A stretch of 25,138 nt of DNA from IMG/VR virus record IMGVR_UViG_3300028840_003526, positions 1 to 25,138 of that record, one strand, 5' to 3'. This document shows, piece after piece, positions 3,098-24,927 of the stretch. Source of the DNA: a virus. Position 1 is the stretch's first letter; the number at the start of each line of letters is the position of its first letter. The notes beneath the pieces are model-generated. The model did no database searches. It was not told the origin of the DNA and saw nothing but the letters and a program-made list of their open reading frames with translations. The position numbers and the translations under genes were made by a program.

Positions 3098-3651
3098 TGG
3101 CGATTCCAAACATAGACCCTAGACTTAGTCGGCTCATGATTGGCAATCGCGCAGAAAATCCCGATCCAGGATGGATTTCCCGAGGAGACTTAGTTTCTTT
3201 TGCATATAGTTTTTGGAAAAACGACCCCCGGCCTCTTGTAATAGTGACAGACTCACTAATGGATATGCCGACAGGAGACAGAATTAGAGGAGTGAATATT
3301 AACTACCTAACTTTCCCAGAAATCAAGTTCTTGCTGCAATACTGCAACAATGCGGGTTTCGTCTACCAATCATTTATGAACAACAAAAGAATCACTGATT
3401 CTTTCAGGACTTACCTGTCGGGCGGGATCAAGATGATTAGAAAGTTAGACTGTCAATTCATAGCTAAAGTAATGAGCATAATAAGTCCCACATTTGATCC
3501 GGCAGAAGTGGAAGCTATTAGGCAAGCAATCCACGAACAAGTCGCACAACAGGTGAATCCACCAACACCAACACCTGGAGAGGTAATGCCGCCACCAGGA
3601 CCCGCACCAGGACCGCCAGGACCAGGGCCCGCACCAGGAGGTGAAGTCTAA
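3097..3651 (+). CDS. Conserved-looking phage protein with Pro/Gly tail, directly before the tape measure
   Basis: This 184-residue protein has a compact N-terminal domain (about 1-120). It contains FAYSFWKNDPRPLVIVTD followed by IRGVNINYLTFPEIKFLLQ, a pattern I associate with a common but unnamed family of T4-like phage proteins. Residues 130-150 form a helix. The last 35 residues are almost entirely Pro, Gly and Ala (PPPGPAPGPPGPGPAPGG) and look disordered or polyproline-like. It occupies the place where tail assembly chaperones often lie, immediately before the tape measure, but I see no slippery frameshift site. The stop overlaps the tape measure start as TAATG, and AGGAGGT near the end of this gene serves as ribosome binding site for the next. 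The ATG at 3097 lacks a Shine-Dalgarno sequence. The exact role is unknown. Confidence 0.8.
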   Translation: MAIPNIDPRLSRLMIGNRAENPDPGWISRGDLVSFAYSFWKNDPRPLVIVTDSLMDMPTGDRIRGVNINYLTFPEIKFLLQYCNNAGFVYQSFMNNKRITDSFRTYLSGGIKMIRKLDCQFIAKVMSIISPTFDPAEVEAIRQAIHEQVAQQVNPPTPTPGEVMPPPGPAPGPPGPGPAPGGEV

Positions 3652-6600
3652 TGGCTGACACCATGCATGAAGTAACAGACAGTCTTGGCAACATAGGAAA
3701 GACTCTAGAGAATTCTTACGACGCTCTTAGAGAGCTTCTTATGTGTCAGTGCGGAAAAGCAACTAAGGTGGGAGAGAAAGAAACTCCTCCCGAAGAAAAG
3801 AGAAGAGGGCTGCTTGAAGAAATTCGAGACATCATGAAAGAGATACGGGATGACTTCCAAGACGAAATGGATAATTCCGAACGCTACGCTAAAAAAGTCG
3901 TCAAGTCCATTCAGAAAGAAGCCAAAGAAACCAGACGCGGAGCCAAGCGGGGCAGAGAGTCTAAGGACTTCAAAGATTTCACAAACGCTTTAGCGGGAAT
4001 AGAAGATGCCAGCAGCAACATTCAGGATGCTGCTAATGATATGCTCAAAAGCGTTGCCGGTCTTAAGACTATGGGGGCCGGTCGTGGCGGTGGTGGTGCT
4101 GGTGGCGGCGGTGGCGGTGGCGGTGGCGGCGGTGGCCGTCAAGGAGGGGCTGATGGACGCGAATATGCCAAGAGGTTTACTTCTGAGTTAGCCAGAGAAA
4201 GCAAAAGAGCGACAGCCGTTATCTTCCACGACATAAGCAAAGCTGTCCTTGGTGGCATGGACCCTGTACACATGCTGTTCCAAGGAATCTACAAGGACGT
4301 AACCGAATTTCGTGGTGACATGCGAGAAATAGCCCACGAAACAAAAGGAATCACAAAAGATATGCGGGGCATGCAGAAGGCATTTGCAGAAACAGGAGCC
4401 GCTGTAGCCCAGACCGGATTTGAACTAGGAACATTCCAAAAACAGTGGATACGAAACCTCCGAAGAGGCGTTAACACCCAAAAGGAAGGCCTGGAAGTTA
4501 GCAAGACCGGATTGAATTTGGCAACAATGATTGGCAGTGAAGCCCACTCCACAGCGGACCTACTCTACGAATGGAACATGCAGTTGGGCTTCAGTGGCAA
4601 TGAATTGGCACAAGTCAACAGAAGTGTTCGAGAAGTGGCCAAGTGGACCGGAGTCACAGGAGACAATCTCCTTAAGGCTGTCCAAAGCTCCCAAAGATTC
4701 TTAACAAACATGCGTAATGCGGGCACCTTAACCGCAGGGGCAGCCAAACAGATTACGCTGATGGTTGCGGAGTCTCAAAAGCTTGGCATTGCCGATCAGA
4801 TGGAAAGGGTCTTAGAAGCAGCCAGCAGTAGCACCAAGCTATTCTATGATGCCAGTGCCGAAACACAACGATTGTTGTTTGCGGCTGCCGGTAGTGTCGG
4901 CAAGATGTACGACCTTACGAAGGGTACGCTTTTGCAAACGCGAGGTGGGAAGGCGGCATTTGCCACAGGCTTGGAGAACATCATGATGTCCTTCGGTGCA
5001 ACCTTCGATGATCTGGCCACGATGTCGGAAGACGAATTGATGCGTATCAACATGGCCATGAAGAATGCCTATGGAATCGAATCAGCAGAACTAGAACGAC
5101 TATACGATTCCATAAAGAAGGGTTCTATGAGCCTTGGTGACCAAATAGCCGAACTAGAAGAAGAAATGAAAAACACAAACCTGACGACAGAGGAGCAACT
5201 GGATCTTCAAAAGAAGATGCAAGACACACTCATGTCTACCGGTTTTGAATTCATGACTATGTTCGACAAACAGGCCTTGAAAAGCGGTGCCTCTATGGAA
5301 CAGGTTGCGGAAAACGTAGTCTCCAAATTGAAGCCAGATCAATGGGAAGATTTGTCTGCGTTTGGCAAAGAGTTGGGAATGACGCTTGATCGAAACTCAT
5401 CGGCTATGGATGTTTATCATGCTTCCGCTCTGGGTGCAGCCAAAAAACTCCAAGAAGCAGGAGGCAAAGACTTCACTGCTGACATAAAAAAGGCTTTGGC
5501 TATTGGCGACATGAAGGGCATGAGAGAAATTCTCACCGAGATGAACGCGGAACAACAAAAAATAGCTGTTGACGAAAAGAAGGCTGTTGATCCTATCTCC
5601 GATATGGCCCAAACCGTAAATGAAATTAACGAAACATTGCGACACATGTCTAGAGGAGTCCTGGGCGGGATTATAGACATGCTGGGTCACTTTGGATTGA
5701 TTATCGGCATTTTAACCGGACTAGCTGCTTCTATTGTTTCAATCACGGGCGGCGGGCTTGGCGGCGGTATTGCGGGCAGTCTCATTGGTGGTCTTCTGAA
5801 AAGAGGGGGAGGAGCAGCGGCAGGAGGAGGAGCAGCAGCACAAGGAGGAGCGATGGCAGCCGGTTTGATGGATAAATCTGGCAAAGTTCTTCCTGTAATT
5901 CCTCCAATGGACCCTGCTGGTGCGGCTGCGGGAGCAGGAGGAAAGGCCGCTGGTAAGGCTGGCAAGGGACTTAAAATGCCCAAGATGCCTTCCATGAAAG
6001 GCTTGGCTTCACAGGGTAAAGAGCTACTCAAGTGGTCTGCTCAAATGGCCGTCTTTATTTTGGGAGTGGTTGCTATTGCTTCCGTGTTGTTGTGGGCTGC
6101 CGGTAAAATCACCGGCTTTCTTGGGCTAACGCCCAAGAAAGCCTTTGAGATAGGGCTTACAGTGGCAACGATACTTGGTGCAGTTGGCACCATCGGTGCG
6201 ATGGCCTATGGTGCAGCCAGGGGGCTTCAATTCTTAGGAACACTACAATCACTTGTTGACGACGTATGGAAAGGAGCGGGTGTATTTGCTGCGATGGCGA
6301 TTCCGCTTGGCTTGCTTTCGATTGCAATCATGGGCTTAGGCTGGGTAATCACTAGATTCGTAAAACCCGAAGATGTAGCCAAGATAGTGGGTGGAGTTAC
6401 AGCAATGTTTGCCGGTGTTGCGGCAATATCTCTTGCAATTTTAGCTAGTGCTGCTGGGCTAACTGTACTGGGAGCGTTAGTGACTGGTCCTCAGGGAGGA
6501 GCAATCATTGGTTATTTCTATGCAGGAGCAATTGCGTTTGGGCTTCTGGCTCCCGCAATGATGCTTATGGCATTGGCTCTATTGGGTTTGAGTTGGGCCG

Positions 6601-9600
6601 TCAGTAAGATTGCCGATCCGAAATGGGCAATGGATGTAGCGATGAGGATTGCAAAGCTGTTTACTGCTGTAGGAATCATTGCTGCTGTAGTTTTAGCGAG
6701 TGCTGCGGTTCTAACGGCACTGGGATCTTTGATTTGGTATGCCCCGATGTTGGCTGGATTCATGATGTTAGGAGCCATAACACTAGGAATCCTTATCCCA
6801 CCCATGGTCGCTTTAGCTCAGGGGGTCGTTAGTTTGTCAGCGGCTATTTTAGCATTTGGAATTGATCCTTCTGCTGCGGCTAATACAGCAATGAGTGTTG
6901 CGAAACTATTGGGTGCTGCCGCATTGATCGCGGCGGCTGTTGTGTTGGGTGCTGCTTCATTGACTGCTTTAGCAGCGATGGCTTGGTATGCTCCGATCTT
7001 GCTGCCCATGATGATAACAGGGGCTTTTGTTTTGGGTCTGTTAATTCCCGGCATGATTGCTTTGGCCACTGTAATTGTCAAGTTGGCTCAAGCCAGCATG
7101 GGATTTGATGCCGAGGAGGCCGCAGCAATAGCCAAGGATGTCTCTAGTCTATTGTGGTCAGCAGGAAAGATCGCTGCGGCGGTCGTAGCTGGTGCGGCTG
7201 CATTGGCTGCTTTAGGAGCTATGGCTTGGTATGCTCCGATATTGGCTATAGGCATGATTCTTGGTGCTGCTGTCTTGAGTGGATTAACCATAGGACTTAT
7301 GGCTCTGGGAACGGAGATAATTAACATAGCCTCCATAGTGTCTACGGTTGTTCCCGAAGAAGAAGAAATGCAGGAAATAACGAAGAAGTTAGCTGCATTA
7401 GGAGAAATTACAAAGCTGTTGGCCGATACAGTAGAAATCATGGTTAAACAGATTTTGCCAATTACAAACCCAGGTTGGTTTAGCGAATCTCCAGCCGAAA
7501 AACTCAAGAAAGCGATGCCTGAATTTAAAGCACTCTTCATAGACATGGGGGAATTTCTTCTCTACGGCATCATCAATCCAGTTGATACTTATTTCCCCGA
7601 CGAAGAAACGCTTAAGATCGTAGTACCCAAAATCCGAGGCATGGCCCAAATCATTGAAGCTTTAGCTCCGATCCTGGAATTCTTTGACAAGGTAGTAACA
7701 GATTGGACGGACAGAAGCATATGGAGTGGGCATTCAAAAGCCAGCGATTTGATGGAACAAGCAATGCCCGAGTTCCGCAAGTTATTCACCAAAATGAGCG
7801 AATTCCTTCTCTACGGCATTATCAATCCAGTTGATACCTACTTCCCTGACGAACAAACGATAGAGGCAGTTGTTCCTAAGGTAGAAGGCATGGCTAGGAT
7901 TTTACAGTCGCTTATGCCAATCATGCAGTTTGTGGAAGAAGTTGTTGGCAAATTCGGAAAGGACGTACAGTGGTTTGGTGATGGAACACTTGCAGAAGAA
8001 TTGGCGGGCAAACTTCCTATATTCAAAGCATTCTTCTCGGCCATTGCGGAATTCCTTCTCTATGGCATTGTGAATCCGGTTGACACTTACTTCCCCGACG
8101 AAGCCACAGCAGAAGATGTAGGCAACAGAATTTCTCGAATGGCCAGCACGATGGAAAGAACAGCTTCGTTCTTGACCACTTTGCAAGGAACAATGGAAAA
8201 GTTTACTGAAGAGAGCTTTTTCGGGGGATCTCCAATTCAAACTCTGTACAAACAAACAGCTAAATTTGCCACGTTCTTTGAAGCAATTGCCTGGGCCATA
8301 AGGAAGGGCATCATCGAACCAATTAACGATTACTTCCCAGACATTTCTGAATTAGAAGATGCCATAACCAAAATGGATATGCTGTCGGCTGCCGTTAGCA
8401 GAGGGATAGATCTAGAGGTGCTGAAAAAGCATATGGAGCAGGAATCTAAAGACGCAACCAAGAAGATGGGAAAAGATCCAAGGGCCCCGCTTAAAAAGGT
8501 GTCCAAGGCTTGGGTTGGTGATCTTAGTGCCACATATGCTGCACACGGTAAAGAATTGGCAGAAGGACGACAAGTCAAACAAGCAGAGAACAAGGTCACA
8601 GCATCAAAACGAAAAACCTCAACGGTACAAAGGAAGATGCTCCGTGATTTGTACGATGAAGGGCTCACGGACTTCAGCGACGATATGGCCAAGAGAGCCA
8701 GCCGAAGTCAAAGGGAGGTTTCCTTTAACATGCGTGGTTTAGGAGGGGGTATATTTGGGAACATGTTCCCCAGAGTACCAGGAATGGGAGCAGGATTGTC
8801 CAATCTATCTTTGCCTTTTATGGGTGGAATGGGGGGCTTGCCTGGAATGGGGATGGGAATGGGAACGGGAGCAGCACTTGTTGCGGGAGGAAAGGGACTT
8901 GCGGCTGGCGGCGTGGGTGGTGCGATAAAAGGCGGAGGTCAAGGTGCTGGGGGAGCGGGAGTGCTTGTAGACGAAGAACGTGTGCGGATGACTTTCGATC
9001 CTGAAACCGGTGAAATAACCGAGCAAAAATACACGTTGCCGGTCGGTGCAGATCCCGCGACCTATGCATCAAAAGTAAATATGGAAGCCGCAATGAACCA
9101 AGCTCTCAAACCGGCATCGGCAGATGAGAGAGCCAGACTTGAAGCCCTTCATGCCGAGAAAACCAGAAGAGCTATTGCAACAGGACAGGCTTTTACAGGA
9201 AGAGCAACCCCACCGGTTTCACAACAAACAGAGCAATGGACGCCGCTTGCGGCAAGTCTACCTCCCGAATTCTTGGCTAAAGAACGAGAAGTAGAGGCAC
9301 AATTCTTAGAGGCTCAAAAAGCCTACATGGCCAGCATGACAGAACACAGAATGGCCATGGACGAAGGGACAACAATACAAAAATCCTTAAATGAAGAAAC
9401 CAAAAAGGGAAAATCGGTTGGCTCAGAATTAACGGCCATTCGCAAAAAGGTTCTGGAGAAGGTAAAGAGGGGCGAGATTACTAGGGAGGAAGCACTAAAT
9501 GAGATGGAGGCTCTACAGAGAGCCCATGTCAAACGTCGTGGTGGACTCCGTGCCCGAGGAATGGCCAAAGGCGGTCAGTTCGTAACGAACGGTCCAGAAC

Positions 9601-9998
9601 TCTTATATGTTGGAGAACAAGGACCCGAACACGTTCAAATTACGCCAGGCGGTGCGGGGGTGCAACCAGTACAACCTACACAACGGCATGATGTGGAAAG
9701 CACGATGATGAGAGAACGTGCAACCACCAGCAACACAGCAACTTCTCTTCGGACTGACGAATTGTCCAGTATCGACGCTGCCAGTCAAGATCAAGTCAAC
9801 AAATTGACTGAGATAGAAGAGGGAATCCAAGAACTAGTTGCCCTGATGAAACCCAACAACGTAGTGGGAGCGGGCGAGGCACCTAGACCGAGTACGGCCT
9901 TGGATACACTTCCCGTTCAATCTCCTCAATATGGAGTGTGGAAATATGGTAAGCCAGGAGGCGGACCTAGCAGAAACGTTGTAAACGACGGAATGTAA
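3651..9998 (+). CDS. Tail tape measure protein
   Basis: At 2115 residues this is by far the largest gene, placed directly before the tube-end, hub and spike genes as tape measures are. The C-terminal part carries the typical tape measure signature (VTNGPELLYVGEQGPE, about residues 1979-1994). The order is: a charged helical N-terminus with a CxC at 32-34; a Gly tract at about 144-163; long helical and coiled-coil segments to about 670; a Gly/Ala-rich segment with membrane-like helices at 680-800; a repeat array from 828 to about 1587; a basic helical region; a second Gly/Met-rich stretch near 1700-1765; and a helical C-terminus. Tape measures fill the tube, set its length and often enter the host envelope during DNA delivery, where hydrophobic segments may help form a channel. 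The start overlaps the previous stop, with AGGAGGT before it. I see no transglycosylase or peptidase motif. Confidence 0.93.
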   Translation: MADTMHEVTDSLGNIGKTLENSYDALRELLMCQCGKATKVGEKETPPEEKRRGLLEEIRDIMKEIRDDFQDEMDNSERYAKKVVKSIQKEAKETRRGAKRGRESKDFKDFTNALAGIEDASSNIQDAANDMLKSVAGLKTMGAGRGGGGAGGGGGGGGGGGGRQGGADGREYAKRFTSELARESKRATAVIFHDISKAVLGGMDPVHMLFQGIYKDVTEFRGDMREIAHETKGITKDMRGMQKAFAETGAAVAQTGFELGTFQKQWIRNLRRGVNTQKEGLEVSKTGLNLATMIGSEAHSTADLLYEWNMQLGFSGNELAQVNRSVREVAKWTGVTGDNLLKAVQSSQRFLTNMRNAGTLTAGAAKQITLMVAESQKLGIADQMERVLEAASSSTKLFYDASAETQRLLFAAAGSVGKMYDLTKGTLLQTRGGKAAFATGLENIMMSFGATFDDLATMSEDELMRINMAMKNAYGIESAELERLYDSIKKGSMSLGDQIAELEEEMKNTNLTTEEQLDLQKKMQDTLMSTGFEFMTMFDKQALKSGASMEQVAENVVSKLKPDQWEDLSAFGKELGMTLDRNSSAMDVYHASALGAAKKLQEAGGKDFTADIKKALAIGDMKGMREILTEMNAEQQKIAVDEKKAVDPISDMAQTVNEINETLRHMSRGVLGGIIDMLGHFGLIIGILTGLAASIVSITGGGLGGGIAGSLIGGLLKRGGGAAAGGGAAAQGGAMAAGLMDKSGKVLPVIPPMDPAGAAAGAGGKAAGKAGKGLKMPKMPSMKGLASQGKELLKWSAQMAVFILGVVAIASVLLWAAGKITGFLGLTPKKAFEIGLTVATILGAVGTIGAMAYGAARGLQFLGTLQSLVDDVWKGAGVFAAMAIPLGLLSIAIMGLGWVITRFVKPEDVAKIVGGVTAMFAGVAAISLAILASAAGLTVLGALVTGPQGGAIIGYFYAGAIAFGLLAPAMMLMALALLGLSWAVSKIADPKWAMDVAMRIAKLFTAVGIIAAVVLASAAVLTALGSLIWYAPMLAGFMMLGAITLGILIPPMVALAQGVVSLSAAILAFGIDPSAAANTAMSVAKLLGAAALIAAAVVLGAASLTALAAMAWYAPILLPMMITGAFVLGLLIPGMIALATVIVKLAQASMGFDAEEAAAIAKDVSSLLWSAGKIAAAVVAGAAALAALGAMAWYAPILAIGMILGAAVLSGLTIGLMALGTEIINIASIVSTVVPEEEEMQEITKKLAALGEITKLLADTVEIMVKQILPITNPGWFSESPAEKLKKAMPEFKALFIDMGEFLLYGIINPVDTYFPDEETLKIVVPKIRGMAQIIEALAPILEFFDKVVTDWTDRSIWSGHSKASDLMEQAMPEFRKLFTKMSEFLLYGIINPVDTYFPDEQTIEAVVPKVEGMARILQSLMPIMQFVEEVVGKFGKDVQWFGDGTLAEELAGKLPIFKAFFSAIAEFLLYGIVNPVDTYFPDEATAEDVGNRISRMASTMERTASFLTTLQGTMEKFTEESFFGGSPIQTLYKQTAKFATFFEAIAWAIRKGIIEPINDYFPDISELEDAITKMDMLSAAVSRGIDLEVLKKHMEQESKDATKKMGKDPRAPLKKVSKAWVGDLSATYAAHGKELAEGRQVKQAENKVTASKRKTSTVQRKMLRDLYDEGLTDFSDDMAKRASRSQREVSFNMRGLGGGIFGNMFPRVPGMGAGLSNLSLPFMGGMGGLPGMGMGMGTGAALVAGGKGLAAGGVGGAIKGGGQGAGGAGVLVDEERVRMTFDPETGEITEQKYTLPVGADPATYASKVNMEAAMNQALKPASADERARLEALHAEKTRRAIATGQAFTGRATPPVSQQTEQWTPLAASLPPEFLAKEREVEAQFLEAQKAYMASMTEHRMAMDEGTTIQKSLNEETKKGKSVGSELTAIRKKVLEKVKRGEITREEALNEMEALQRAHVKRRGGLRARGMAKGGQFVTNGPELLYVGEQGPEHVQITPGGAGVQPVQPTQRHDVESTMMRERATTSNTATSLRTDELSSIDAASQDQVNKLTEIEEGIQELVALMKPNNVVGAGEAPRPSTALDTLPVQSPQYGVWKYGKPGGGPSRNVVNDGM
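4081..4138 (+). repeat. Poly-glycine microsatellite (GGY codons) in the tape measure gene
   Basis: A run of GGT and GGC codons encodes about 20 residues that are nearly all Gly, with a single Ala break. It separates the charged N-terminal helices from the next helical segment and probably acts as a flexible linker. The alternating GGT/GGC units resemble a microsatellite prone to length change by slippage in units of one codon, which would keep the frame. Confidence 0.85.
6114..6143 (+). repeat. Perfect 13-bp inverted repeat with TAAC loop inside the tape measure gene
   Basis: GGCTTTCTTGGGC at 6114-6126 pairs exactly with GCCCAAGAAAGCC at 6131-6143 across a four-base loop. It is followed by TTTGAG rather than a long U-run, so it resembles but does not fully match an intrinsic terminator. 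A second, shorter hairpin (GCCGGT 6099-6104 with ACCGGC 6111-6116) shares its last three bases, so the two cannot both form. It lies where the protein repeat array begins. Confidence 0.8.
6132..8411 (+). repeat. Tandem array of about 82-residue protein repeats in the tape measure
   Basis: Ten repeat starts, each marked by a Pro or Ala followed by a charged/Ala helix (for example PKKAFEI, PEDVAKI, PKWAMDV, PSAAANT, PEEEEMQ, PDEETLK), begin at 6132, 6366, 6618, 6867, 7110, 7353, 7596, 7845, 8094 and 8337. The spacings are 78, 84, 83, 81, 81, 81, 83, 83 and 81 codons. Units up to about 7350 are very hydrophobic, with WYAP motifs at 6735, 6984 and 7227. Later units are amphipathic and carry EFLLYGIINPVDTYFPDE at 7551, 7800 and 8049, with a diverged copy at 8292. 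The first two of these 54-base copies differ at five positions, all silent, which indicates selection on the protein. Confidence 0.85.
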
Positions 9999-20350: not shown

Positions 20351-20628
20351 TGAAGAAGACATTTGAGATACAAGAAGTCTACGATCCCGCAGAGGATCGG
20401 CAATTCAAGGCTCTTATGATAGATGGAGAGCTATTTGATTTCGGCTTTGACATGGAAGAAGTCCGCAGAGCCAAGAGGATGTGTGGACAAGATTCTTTCT
20501 TGGGCAAAAGTCTTAAGGGCGACATATGTCAATTCTTCCTTGAGAGCTTGTCTGAGGTTTTGGGGCAAACGATTACGCTTGCCGAAGTCAATGCCGCGAT
20601 CAAGAAAGGGTATTGGGAATGTACTTAG
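20350..20628 (+). CDS. Small phage protein of unknown function, 92 residues
   Basis: The start is placed at 20350, where the ATG overlaps the preceding TAA (TAATG). An in-frame ATG at 20323 would overlap the previous gene by 28 bases and is less likely. The product is acidic and mostly helical, with a strand near residues 17-28 (FKALMIDGELFDFGFD) and a C-terminal helix pair (ICQFFLESLSEVLGQ, VNAAIKKGYW). There is no membrane segment and no known motif. Because it sits between a virion protein and a SET-domain gene in a coupled run, a chaperone or adaptor role is possible, but nothing in the sequence shows it. Confidence 0.7.
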   Translation: MKKTFEIQEVYDPAEDRQFKALMIDGELFDFGFDMEEVRRAKRMCGQDSFLGKSLKGDICQFFLESLSEVLGQTITLAEVNAAIKKGYWECT

Positions 20629-21161
20629 TCGAAGAAACCGACACCAGATTCTACCTAAAGGAATCGACCGTGCCGAATGCGGGCTTGGGAGTATTTGCTG
20701 CTGAACCGCTGAAGGCGGGAGACTACCTAGAGATTATCGGGGTCCAGGTCAAAACGAACTCTATCGCTGACGAATGTACCGCTTTTGCTGACAAATACAA
20801 GTTTGCCGCAGCGGGCAAGTTGGTGAAAAAGGAGCGGACGACGGACTTTTCTAGGAAAGTGGTTCCACTAGGTTATGGGGGAATGGTCAATCATGCTCCC
20901 AATGCCAAGATGCAAAACGCGATGATTGATTACCACAAAGGGCCCAAAAGGAACGCGGCAGCGGGACAGCCGGTATATCGTTTCCTCAGAAACATCGCAA
21001 AGGATGAGGAAATACTGGGCAATTATGGAGAACAGTGGATGAACATCATGGAATGGGCCGGGGATAAGGCCAATGAAGTTGGGGATGAGTGGGAAACCTT
21101 TTTGTCGTTCGACCTATATAATCTTAAGGAGATCATGAGCGAGTTAAGTCCCAAGGAGTAA
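20619..21161 (+). CDS. SET-domain protein (putative protein-lysine methyltransferase)
   Basis: The ATG at 20619 overlaps the end of the preceding gene; an in-frame TTG six bases earlier is also possible. The 180-residue product shows the SET order: GLGVFA at 22-27 with AGDYLE at 33-38 (SET N-terminal strand pair), GYGGMVNHAP with Asn91-His92 (the NH of the cofactor-binding motif) and EEILGNYGEQW with Tyr136 (the C-terminal E-E-x-x-x-x-Y-G motif holding the catalytic Tyr). The Cys-rich post-SET segment is absent, as in many small SET proteins. Such enzymes transfer methyl groups from S-adenosylmethionine to lysines on proteins. The gene is embedded in the baseplate/fibre run with tight spacing, so it is probably made late. 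The substrate, virion or host, is unknown. The C-terminal helices from 145 on are outside the SET core. Confidence 0.75.
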   Translation: MYLVEETDTRFYLKESTVPNAGLGVFAAEPLKAGDYLEIIGVQVKTNSIADECTAFADKYKFAAAGKLVKKERTTDFSRKVVPLGYGGMVNHAPNAKMQNAMIDYHKGPKRNAAAGQPVYRFLRNIAKDEEILGNYGEQWMNIMEWAGDKANEVGDEWETFLSFDLYNLKEIMSELSPKE

Positions 21162-21976: not shown

Positions 21977-22543
21977 GTGACTCGATTCAAACATGAAGAA
22001 TTGAGTTTCGGTTTTGTTATCCTGTTACCAGAATTTAACCCTGGTGCCCTTCAGGGTACTATGCGATCCATTCGCAATCGGTATCCAAAGGATTTCCCTG
22101 TTGTTTGCGTTACAGGGAAGGATACGACGGCAGCCGAACTCAAAGAGATTAAAGAATACTGCCCTGCTCACCGAGGCAAACATACAATTACCTCCCTGAT
22201 AAATACCGGAATGAAGAAGGGCAACAAGGCATGGAATATCATTATTATGGCTGGAGCCGTAGTGCGACCAAGTTTGGATCAACGATATTCCTATTGGATT
22301 GAAAGCGAAAAAGACGTGCTATATCCAATTGTTGTTGACTATAATCGTGACGGATATCCCGTCAAAATTTACGCCGAATTCTATGAGGCAACACTTAACG
22401 GCCTTTGCATGCACCACAAAACGTTTAAGTCCGTGGGAGATTTGTCTAATGATGTCTTTGAATGGTCCAGAAAGATCTGGGCCCTAGATGCGGCGAAACA
22501 GGGGGTGAAATTCAAAGCGATTCTGGGAACAAAGATGTGCTGA
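21977..22543 (+). CDS. Glycosyltransferase family 2-like protein lacking an obvious DxD
   Basis: The start is a GTG at 21977 with only a weak ribosome binding site; no in-frame ATG lies near. The 188-residue product has a GT-A-like opening, FGFVILLPEFNPGALQGTM with SIRNRYP and VVCVTG (strand, helix, strand), then TSLINTGMKKGNKAW and NIIIMAGAVVRP. In active GT2 enzymes a DxD motif that binds the metal and nucleotide sugar would be expected at the end of this last strand; here MAGAVV stands in its place. It may therefore be inactive, use an altered site, or bind rather than transfer sugar. It ends in FKAILGTKMC. Its 3' end overlaps the convergent gene at 22512 by 32 bases. Located among fibre genes, it could modify virion or host surface glycans. 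Confidence 0.6.
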   Translation: MTRFKHEELSFGFVILLPEFNPGALQGTMRSIRNRYPKDFPVVCVTGKDTTAAELKEIKEYCPAHRGKHTITSLINTGMKKGNKAWNIIIMAGAVVRPSLDQRYSYWIESEKDVLYPIVVDYNRDGYPVKIYAEFYEATLNGLCMHHKTFKSVGDLSNDVFEWSRKIWALDAAKQGVKFKAILGTKMC

Positions 22544-23135
22544 TGATTTCCGTTCTTTGTTTGATGGCAAGTCGGATCAGTTCCCATTCTTCCGACAACG
22601 GTTTGATTCCTTGGTCCAAAGCAACCAATTCCTCTACCACCTCTTCGATAGAACCGAAAACATTGGCTTCTCTTTGAGCGATAACCGGATCGTCGCTCTT
22701 GATTTTGTCAATCACATCAAACAACCAGCGAGGAAGATTGTAAAGTCCATTTTCACAAACAAAATAGGTAGGAATATGCCGACCTTCGGCAACATAGGTT
22801 TCATTTGCAGTTCCCCACTGAGGGATGCGATGATCCACCACGACAATGATGAAATCAGCAGAATCGGTGCAATGAAGATCATGACGGCGGTATGACCGCA
22901 CATATTGTTGCAATTCTCGGAATCGGCCAGCTTTTTGAAGTGCAACTTGATAGCCCGTATCTTCATTTCCGAATTTGCCCTCGGGTTTGTCGGTGGGATC
23001 TAGTAGGCCCACTTCAAGCTTGGGCTTTGTATGTCGGATCAATTTGCAGAATTCACGCCGCCATCCAACCCCTGCGTCTTCTGCATACTCCATCGCTCCA
23101 GACAAATAACCCAATGCACCGCTCAATTTCCCCAT
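22512..23135 (-). CDS. Nucleoside 2-deoxyribosyltransferase-like protein
   Basis: This minus-strand gene has a clear ribosome binding site (TAGGAG, seven bases before its ATG) and encodes 207 residues. The N-terminal strand and loop YLSGAMEYAEDAGVGWR (10-26) fits the nucleotide-binding start of this fold, DPTDK follows at 46-50, and ADFIIVVVD with GTANE (Glu112) matches the region that holds the catalytic Glu in 2-deoxyribosyltransferases. Related phage proteins are usually thought to act on nucleotides or their bases. It is the only minus-strand gene between 749 and the right edge, converging on the gene before it and diverging from the one after, which suggests a separately expressed inserted gene (moron). 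The family call is by motif only. Substrate and activity are unknown. Confidence 0.6.
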   Translation of the reverse strand: MGKLSGALGYLSGAMEYAEDAGVGWRREFCKLIRHTKPKLEVGLLDPTDKPEGKFGNEDTGYQVALQKAGRFRELQQYVRSYRRHDLHCTDSADFIIVVVDHRIPQWGTANETYVAEGRHIPTYFVCENGLYNLPRWLFDVIDKIKSDDPVIAQREANVFGSIEEVVEELVALDQGIKPLSEEWELIRLAIKQRTEIISTSLFPESL

Positions 23136-23200: not shown

Positions 23201-23875
23201 ATGTCAAGTGAGATTTTAGGCGAAATTACCCAACTTCTTTCCGAAAATAAAGTCGTTAATAGAATGAGCTTCTTCCAGATGAAGTATTTCATGGTGGGGA
23301 AAGAACCCACCCTACAGGCCAAACTACGACATTGTTTGAATGAAATATCGGCTAGAAGACATGCCCTGGAAAACATGGAATTAGCCATAGACGAGGCGAA
23401 AGACGACATCCGATTAGTGGAAATCGATATTGAGGGCGAACAAGGCCTTTTACGCGAATTTGAGGCAGACCACCTAAATAAAGAAAGTACCGAGATAGCA
23501 CTTCGGAAACTACAACGCAAGAAAAGAAAGTTGGAGATGAGTCTGGAAGATCTGCTGAAAACGCAGAGAGAAACCGAAGAAGAAGCGGATTTCTTCCTTA
23601 GAGCCTTCAGGAGAATTGAGGAGGTTGAACCCCTCAGGCCCTTCGATGACTACCAAACGAACCTAGAGCTTTGGAATGAAAAGTACAGCGAAGAGTTAAA
23701 ACTTCGGGTGCTGACACAAAAGCCACTAGATTTGAATCTGGTGAGATGCATTCTGGCTCTTGATAAAGACACCCCCATCAGAAAGGAACTTGTTGGCTGG
23801 TTGGAGCAAATCGAACAAAAAGCACAACTGCAAATCGAAAAAAAGCAAGGTAGGTTGAGCGACAAAGGAGAATAA
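23201..23875 (+). CDS. Coiled-coil protein of unknown function
   Basis: The ATG follows GAGGAGATAAAAT, a good ribosome binding site. The 224-residue product has a short N-terminal segment (ILGEITQLLSENKVVNRMSF and FQMKYFMVGKEPTLQAKL) and then a long charged helix from about 45 to 135 with heptad-like hydrophobic spacing, consistent with a coiled coil. A shorter helical part ends in a very basic, Gln-rich tail. There are no membrane segments and no catalytic residues I recognise. It opens the final run of fibre genes and is joined to the PKD gene by a TAATG overlap. That suggests a structural or assembly role such as a fibre chaperone or linker, which is inference. Confidence 0.75.
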   Translation: MSSEILGEITQLLSENKVVNRMSFFQMKYFMVGKEPTLQAKLRHCLNEISARRHALENMELAIDEAKDDIRLVEIDIEGEQGLLREFEADHLNKESTEIALRKLQRKKRKLEMSLEDLLKTQRETEEEADFFLRAFRRIEEVEPLRPFDDYQTNLELWNEKYSEELKLRVLTQKPLDLNLVRCILALDKDTPIRKELVGWLEQIEQKAQLQIEKKQGRLSDKGE

Positions 23876-24927
23876 TGGCAGACCGCGTCACAAGCATAGA
23901 TGAAGGCTATGTTCCTGGTGATTTATCGCTGTTCCCAGAGGCAATAGATGACAAGGTGATTTTATACCAAGCCGCCAACAATGCGGAAACCGTATTGAAA
24001 CAAGGATTGCCTTACAATGCCGACAAGATCATTGTCGAAGATGCCACCCTATTTCCACCACAAGGATTATTGCGGATAGGAGTACCCCCAGGAGAACCGG
24101 GAATTGCGGAAATCGTTTACTACGGCAACAGAACCGATACTGTTTTTACCAACACCCAACGCGGCTTTGTAGGTTCCAGACAAAACCAGTGGATTGCGGG
24201 TGTTCCTGTAGTCAATGCCGTTATGGCAGAACCACACAACGCGGTTAAAGATGCCGTTATCAACATGGAAGGTTACGCGGGTCTGCGAACAAGCACCGAC
24301 ACAGCCACCATTGCCGGAAAGGTACGACTCCTAGAGGTGAAGCATGTAGCCCCCAAGGCCCTATTCAGAGCATTTCCTCGTTTGGGGGCCCCACCACTAA
24401 ACGTTAGGTTTCAAAATTTCTCTTCTGGTAATGTCATTCGCGTATTGTGGGATTTCGGAGATGGCGGTTCTTCGTTAGAGCGAAGTCCCAACCACACTTA
24501 TTACGCGGAAGGAGAGTATACAGTCACGCTAACCGTTGTGACCGGAACGGGGGCACAGGGCATTACAACCAAAGAAAGCTACATTCGCGTTTCCGAAGAG
24601 GAATCCCTTGTTTTCTTCTATGTTGTACAAGCAGACCAATCTCAGCCAGCTTATTCTGTCGATACAGCAGCGGACCTAGTTGAAACAGGAACCAACCCCA
24701 GTGCCACGCCCGCCACGTTTAAATTTGTCGATCAGTCAGAAGGTGCAATAGCAAGTAGAGTTTGGGTTTTTGGAGATGGGGAAAGTGAAACCGCCTTAGA
24801 TCCGAACTTTCACTCTACAACACACACATATCAGTCTCCAGGAGAGTATGAACCGGGCTTGCTGCTGGTGTATGCCGATGAACGACAACTATTTGTCCCA
24901 CTAGACTATAAGGTGATAGTGATATAA
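23875..24927 (+). CDS. Fibre or adhesion protein with two PKD-like domains
   Basis: An ATG overlaps the previous stop (TAATG), with AAAGGAG upstream. The 350-residue product has an N-terminal module at about 15-140: DKIIVEDATLFPPQGLLRIG, AEIVYYG, NTQRGFVGS and AEPHNAVKDAVINME. I associate this kind of module with attaching proteins to phage baseplates. Two PKD-type beta sandwiches follow. The first has VLWDFGDGGSS (about residue 190) with NHTYYAEGEYTVTLTV, and the second has VWVFGDGES (about 295) with THTYQSPGEYEPGL. PKD domains are immunoglobulin-like spacers and binding modules common in surface adhesins. The next gene starts with a related N-terminal module, so the two are paralogues. A host-contact or fibre-spacer role is likely. 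Confidence 0.8.
   Translation: MADRVTSIDEGYVPGDLSLFPEAIDDKVILYQAANNAETVLKQGLPYNADKIIVEDATLFPPQGLLRIGVPPGEPGIAEIVYYGNRTDTVFTNTQRGFVGSRQNQWIAGVPVVNAVMAEPHNAVKDAVINMEGYAGLRTSTDTATIAGKVRLLEVKHVAPKALFRAFPRLGAPPLNVRFQNFSSGNVIRVLWDFGDGGSSLERSPNHTYYAEGEYTVTLTVVTGTGAQGITTKESYIRVSEEESLVFFYVVQADQSQPAYSVDTAADLVETGTNPSATPATFKFVDQSEGAIASRVWVFGDGESETALDPNFHSTTHTYQSPGEYEPGLLLVYADERQLFVPLDYKVIVI

Follow-up and report, generated by a model that had tools for sequence, protein, structure and literature searches.

The probable tail tape measure protein encoded by the open reading frame (ORF) at 3651-9998 contains an array of nine units of 79-83 residues (residues 827-1563), of which the first five are transmembrane-like (TM-like) and the following four are charged. 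The DNA analysed, referred to here as the window, comprises 25,138 bases and corresponds to a complete virus record in IMG/VR. The same order, with hydrophobic units preceding soluble ones and the period running on between them, was found in relatives of this protein.

Unit starts were located at residues 827, 906, 989, 1072, 1153, 1235, 1317, 1400, and 1483 (and 1564), at intervals of 79, 83, 83, 81, 82, 82, 83, 83, and 81 residues. Each interval lies within one residue of the values given in a first-pass annotation of this DNA, and the array with an 81-84 residue period described there is real. BLOSUM autocorrelation reached its maximum at lag 83, separately in the hydrophobic and the soluble parts, and the windowed autocorrelation was 2.36, compared to a shuffled maximum of 0.34-0.42. 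The change from hydrophobic to charged along the array was also confirmed: units 1-5 showed mean Kyte-Doolittle (KD) values of 0.99-1.58 with 3-9 charged residues each, and units 6-9 showed values of -0.24 to 0.37 with 18-22 charged residues each. All TM-like 19-mers (KD > 1.6) lie before residue 1235, and the KD 19-mer scan of the ORF found no such segment after residue 1234.

Three details of the same annotation held in part. The WYAP motif, attributed to the first units, is present in units 3-5 but not in units 1-2, while the motif of the later units, EFLLYGIINPVDTYFPDE, occurs unaltered in units 6 and 7, with a single change in unit 8 and in degenerate form in unit 9. Differences confined to silent sites, claimed for the near-copies in units 6 and 7, were indeed observed in the 18-residue motif (five third-position differences), but over the whole units the identity is 46% for protein and 52% for DNA; the codon near-identity is confined to the motif.

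Table 1. Position of the probable tape measure gene, its repeat units and associated segments in the window.
Feature	Residues	Position	Strand	Evidence
Probable tail tape measure protein (2115 aa)		3651..9998	+	Longest ORF of tail module
Isolated TM-like segment	681-699	5691..5747	+	KD19 2.12
TM-like segment just before array	799-817	6045..6101	+	KD19 2.57
Hydrophobic unit 1	827-905	6129..6365	+	H-family profile, E 1.6e-15 (profile seeded with window units)
Hydrophobic unit 2	906-988	6366..6614	+	Unit analysis, profile
Hydrophobic unit 3 (WYAP)	989-1071	6615..6863	+	Unit analysis, profile
Hydrophobic unit 4 (WYAP)	1072-1152	6864..7106	+	Unit analysis, profile, AF2
Hydrophobic unit 5 (WYAP)	1153-1234	7107..7352	+	Unit analysis, profile, AF2
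Soluble unit 6 (FLLYGI)	1235-1316	7353..7598	+	Unit analysis, profile
Soluble unit 7 (FLLYGI)	1317-1399	7599..7847	+	Unit analysis, profile
Soluble unit 8 (FLLYGI variant)	1400-1482	7848..8096	+	Unit analysis, profile
Soluble unit 9 (degenerate motif)	1483-1563	8097..8339	+	Unit analysis, profile
C-terminal GGQFVTNGPELLYVGEQGPEHV motif (VGEQGPE)		9564..9647	+	Read in protein sequence

Scanning of IMG/VR with the gp6-like gene and the 186-aa gene downstream of the ORF returned more than 100 loci, the largest contig measuring 458 kb, and a set of 45 non-redundant homologous proteins, later extended, was taken as relatives, some of them on contigs above 300 kb. A search of the gp6-like protein against genome contigs found no relative. 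Unit profiles seeded with the window units revealed 318 units in roughly 25 of about 45 relatives, with a median spacing of 82 residues (5-95 percentile, 77-93), and two of the longest relatives contained 28 and 30 units. The hydrophobic (H) family preceded the FLLYGI (S) family in all 20 arrays holding both types, which share descent and do not represent 20 independent events; L131 and L141, among these mixed arrays, had been left out of profile building. In every array seen, the period of approximately 82 residues runs on across the H-S junction; its sharing by the two types is therefore not due to chance in this genome, and the coincidence that the first-pass annotation had envisaged was not borne out.

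The profile search detected no units in several homologues. Relatives such as L107, L108, L115, and L124 have one or two TM-like segments, which indicates that the wider group can do without a large hydrophobic array. L124, encoded on the 458-kb phage contig, contains its own 78-residue repeat at residues about 2153-2390, which was not recognised by the unit profiles, and L098, also without detected units, has its own 73-residue period.

Profile analyses revealed that the H family is not restricted to hydrophobic units. A profile built from 69 strictly hydrophobic units (KD >= 0.9) retrieved charged units (KD < 0.5) over their full length with E values of 1e-10 to 1e-5, while the best decoys (reversed proteins) reached about 6e-4 to 8e-4 for H profiles. 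Comparison of the hydrophobic and soluble H-family sets gave a profile-profile score of 64, with a reversed control of 12. In L116, units 10 and 11 lie next to each other and show 38% identity (z 13.7); they have in common, e.g., AFFIMAxPVxxFVxxxMxLGRxM, while the mean KD changes from 1.26 to -0.06. At the level of sequence, the H family therefore includes both membrane-like and soluble members, which can be close homologues.

The nature of this switch was analysed by comparing 82 hydrophobic and 31 soluble H-family units column by column. In both helices, the hydropathy pattern and the difference between the two forms were helix-periodic (about 100 degrees). The most hydrophobic face was in equal phase in the hydrophobic and soluble forms (10-15 degrees apart), while the hydropathy difference was located on the opposite face (166-169 degrees; P <= 0.002 compared to column shuffles), an opposition that is partly due to the lower amplitude in hydrophobic units. 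The result was stable when L116, L102 or L035 was left out. These column patterns argue firmly for a switch within the H family in which the core face was kept and the other face was changed.

Regarding the relationship between the H and S families, no significant similarity was detected between the hydrophobic and the FLLYGI units of the window, or between H and S by profile comparison of the expanded sets, and hhalign of the five hydrophobic against the four soluble window units returned nothing. An alignment of the nine window units made directly with MAFFT misplaced gaps, and one of overlapping unit triples was discarded because it had shifted by one unit. The single repeat family proposed in the first-pass annotation is thus supported by the H family of the relatives, which spans both types, but not by the hydrophobic and FLLYGI units of the window; the lack of significant similarity between these two is the outcome that the annotation had named as its refutation. 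The score between soluble H-family and S-family profiles was 29.5 forward and 29.3 reversed, a likeness that equal-length amphipathic helices would give. Two candidate links were rejected: a transitive one, from hydrophobic through soluble H-family to FLLYGI units (E 5e-6), because the reversed-profile control scored the same, and a bridge through unit 14 of L116 (E 0.004), because it fell within the decoy range.

One bridging unit between H and S remained after these controls. Both families recognised unit 5 of L065 in register, with E values of 7.6e-6 and 1.5e-9, against 1.6e-3 and 2.9e-4 for the best decoys, and unit 4 aligned with this neighbouring S unit with a z of 8.8 and a score of 71.5 forward and 11.5 reversed. 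The alignment was strongest at the unit end, so that a hybrid unit may be involved. In addition, the forward score exceeded the reversed one for 20 of 23 H-S junction pairs, some of them redundant. Common ancestry of H and S is therefore possible but unproven, and the FLLYGI units may constitute a separate, or very diverged, family with an equal period.

Two explanations of the shared period follow different sides of these data. According to the first, to which we give somewhat less than an even chance, the tape measure protein arose by the joining of two repeat families of separate origin, whose common period was set by the fit to the tail tube; the ruler role and a membrane role of the hydrophobic part could still hold. 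The absence of significant H-S similarity in the window and the expanded sets, the equal forward and reversed scores, and the drop of adjacent-unit identity to 16-31% at every H-S junction are consistent with it, while the double recognition of L065 unit 5, the L065 4/5 alignment (with the hybrid proviso) and the junction pairs argue against it. A straight helix of 82 residues at 1.5 A per residue would measure about 123 A, near three rings of a contractile tail, in which the ring height is about 40 A, and this could fix the period for both types; a hairpin arrangement of the units is equally open. The second explanation, which we put forward tentatively and with slightly more doubt, is that a single ancestral helix-turn-helix unit gave rise to all the others, being copied to change tail length and repolarised on one helix face to determine how many units would form a membrane channel and how many would remain soluble in the tube, in which case ruler and pore would be tuned by one modular array.

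Growth of the arrays by duplication was investigated in the relatives. Identity between adjacent units reached 99% at the protein level and 97-99% at the DNA level (L035, of which L139 is the complete copy). The soluble H-family block of L139, like residues 37-289 of L035, contains three near-identical tandem 86-residue units, and this triple is, judged by its identity, a very recent duplication. Comparison of the close relatives L139 and L137 revealed that most units pair one to one (69-94%), that S21 and S22 of L139 both pair with S20 of L137 (69 and 70%, respectively), and that L139 has extra copies in its soluble H-family block. Such pairings show, as far as sequence comparison can, that units were duplicated whole. 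Complete array proteins ranged from 1503 to 3314 aa, and their length rose by 95 aa with each unit (r 0.92, n=9). The identity was low at the H-S junction in every array, which indicates that copying takes place within each type.

Structure prediction of units 4-5 by AF2 showed two helices per unit, of 36 and 41 residues (pLDDT 73, pTM 0.56), located in unit 4 at unit positions 2-37 and 40-80. Prediction of units 4-7, for which the input consisted of mixed partial rows, showed a similar two-helix layout at low confidence (pLDDT 50, pTM 0.39). With these pTM scores, the tertiary models of the units are not considered reliable. A Foldseek search with the units 4-5 model gave no significant match, and the search with the units 4-7 model was uninformative.

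The explanation towards which we lean, slightly, is that of a large, contractile-tailed phage in which a duplicating helix-turn-helix tape would act as ruler and its hydrophobic part would insert into the host membrane to let the DNA pass. Within the virion, the chain would occupy the tail tube, its C-terminus would lie at the baseplate, and the number of units would set the tail length. On firing, the tape measure protein would exit through the tip; the soluble units, nearer to the C-terminus, would emerge ahead of the hydrophobic units, which would follow into the membrane. The latter, head-proximal and with about ten long helices per chain here, would insert into the inner membrane, probably as oligomers forming the DNA passage, and the soluble units would bridge from the tip through the periplasm. 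Membrane insertion is what we infer solely from hydropathy, and the DNA channel role is plausible by analogy with known tape measure proteins. At 36-41 residues, the predicted helices exceed the length required to cross a bilayer, which counts against insertion.

The hydrophobic units have 3-9 charges per 79-83 residues and a mean KD of up to 1.6, as is typical of polytopic membrane proteins, and their opposite helix face is also hydrophobic, which core packing alone would not require. Both features make it unlikely that these units never enter a membrane and instead form a packed core in the tube, or bind an assembly chaperone, before being ejected. This alternative agrees with the helix length, with the soluble units' helical face pattern being kept at reduced amplitude in H units, with the relatives that have only one or two TM-like segments, and with the chaperone binding suggested for hydrophobic tape measure regions (PMC5099701); the lambda tape measure protein, labelled near the inner-membrane ManYZ during injection (PMC13190303), speaks for the insertion of the hydrophobic part that we favour.

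The assignment of the ORF was based on position, size, helical content and C-terminal motif. Downstream of it lie gp53-like, Phage_base_V, gp25-like, and gp6-like baseplate genes, and in many relatives it is directly upstream of the conserved 186-aa gene and the gp53/gp25/gp6-like set. The protein is predicted to be mostly helical with repeats (AF2 secondary structure, units 4-7 and 4-5), and its VGEQGPE motif is of a type that occurs near the C-terminus of many tape measure proteins. The whole protein matched no Pfam, PHROG or NCBIfam tape measure model; in the relative L094, a sub-segment alone matches phrog_1272 (tape measure; 1.5e-8) and the whole protein does not. Named members usually match a curated profile, but many tape measure proteins do not. 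Because no curated profile matches the protein as a whole, its identity is only probable. The same lack of a model would fit another large internal virion protein, but this is very improbable for the longest ORF of the module, located upstream of the 186-aa gene and baseplate set in many relatives, with a VGEQGPE motif and a length that varies with the number of units.

Near the N-terminus, the protein has a glycine run (16 Gly in 17 residues; residues 146-162, window 4086-4136, + strand). Elsewhere, the tail/fibre region encodes a SET-domain protein (20613-21161, + strand; PF00856, E 9e-7, above the curated cut-off), and a protein with two PKD domains (23875-24927, + strand; E 1.7e-23) is probably a fibre or adhesion part. 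A 207-aa ORF on the reverse strand (22512-23135) lies inside the forward gene block and weakly resembles, below the cut-off (E 0.015), nucleoside deoxyribosyltransferases.

The only named-phage record matched by the protein was LR756511.1 (595 kb), through the N-terminal domain only, and tblastn of the repeat regions against named phages gave no match. The homologue in this record (L004) is 28% identical over residues 186-475, and its gp6-like gene shows 45% identity to that of the window; unlike the window protein, however, L004 is 1640 aa long, has two TM-like segments and yielded no units in the profile search. In the lactococcal siphophage TP901-1, deletion of tape measure repeats shortens the tail, and the protein has two hydrophobic regions with three predicted TM segments each, whose membrane action the authors could not show and for which they suggested chaperone binding (PMC5099701). 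Both proteins thus combine repeats with hydrophobic regions, but the TP901-1 repeats have 11 or 18 residues, without a large unit in hydrophobic and soluble versions. For the Pseudomonas siphophage JBD30, the excerpted account describes a tape measure trimer in the tube with its C-terminus in the baseplate, proposes that the rest exits and inserts as a membrane DNA channel, and describes no 82-residue repeat array (PMC11445458). Thermus phage P23-45 has a giant tape measure protein with an N-terminal RNA polymerase fusion, likewise very long, and the abstract mentions no such array (PMC10770324). Among the open-licence papers searched, none describes a tape measure protein arranged in this way; the hydrophobic-to-soluble array layout appears to be new, the kind of protein itself being already known.

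How a tape measure protein changes from a tube ruler to a membrane passage is an unsolved problem. Large phages with one helical unit type in membrane-like and soluble forms, in variable numbers, offer natural pairs for separating length-setting from insertion. The data suggest that tail length evolves in one-unit steps, and the layout suggests one modular way of setting tail length and building a membrane pore.
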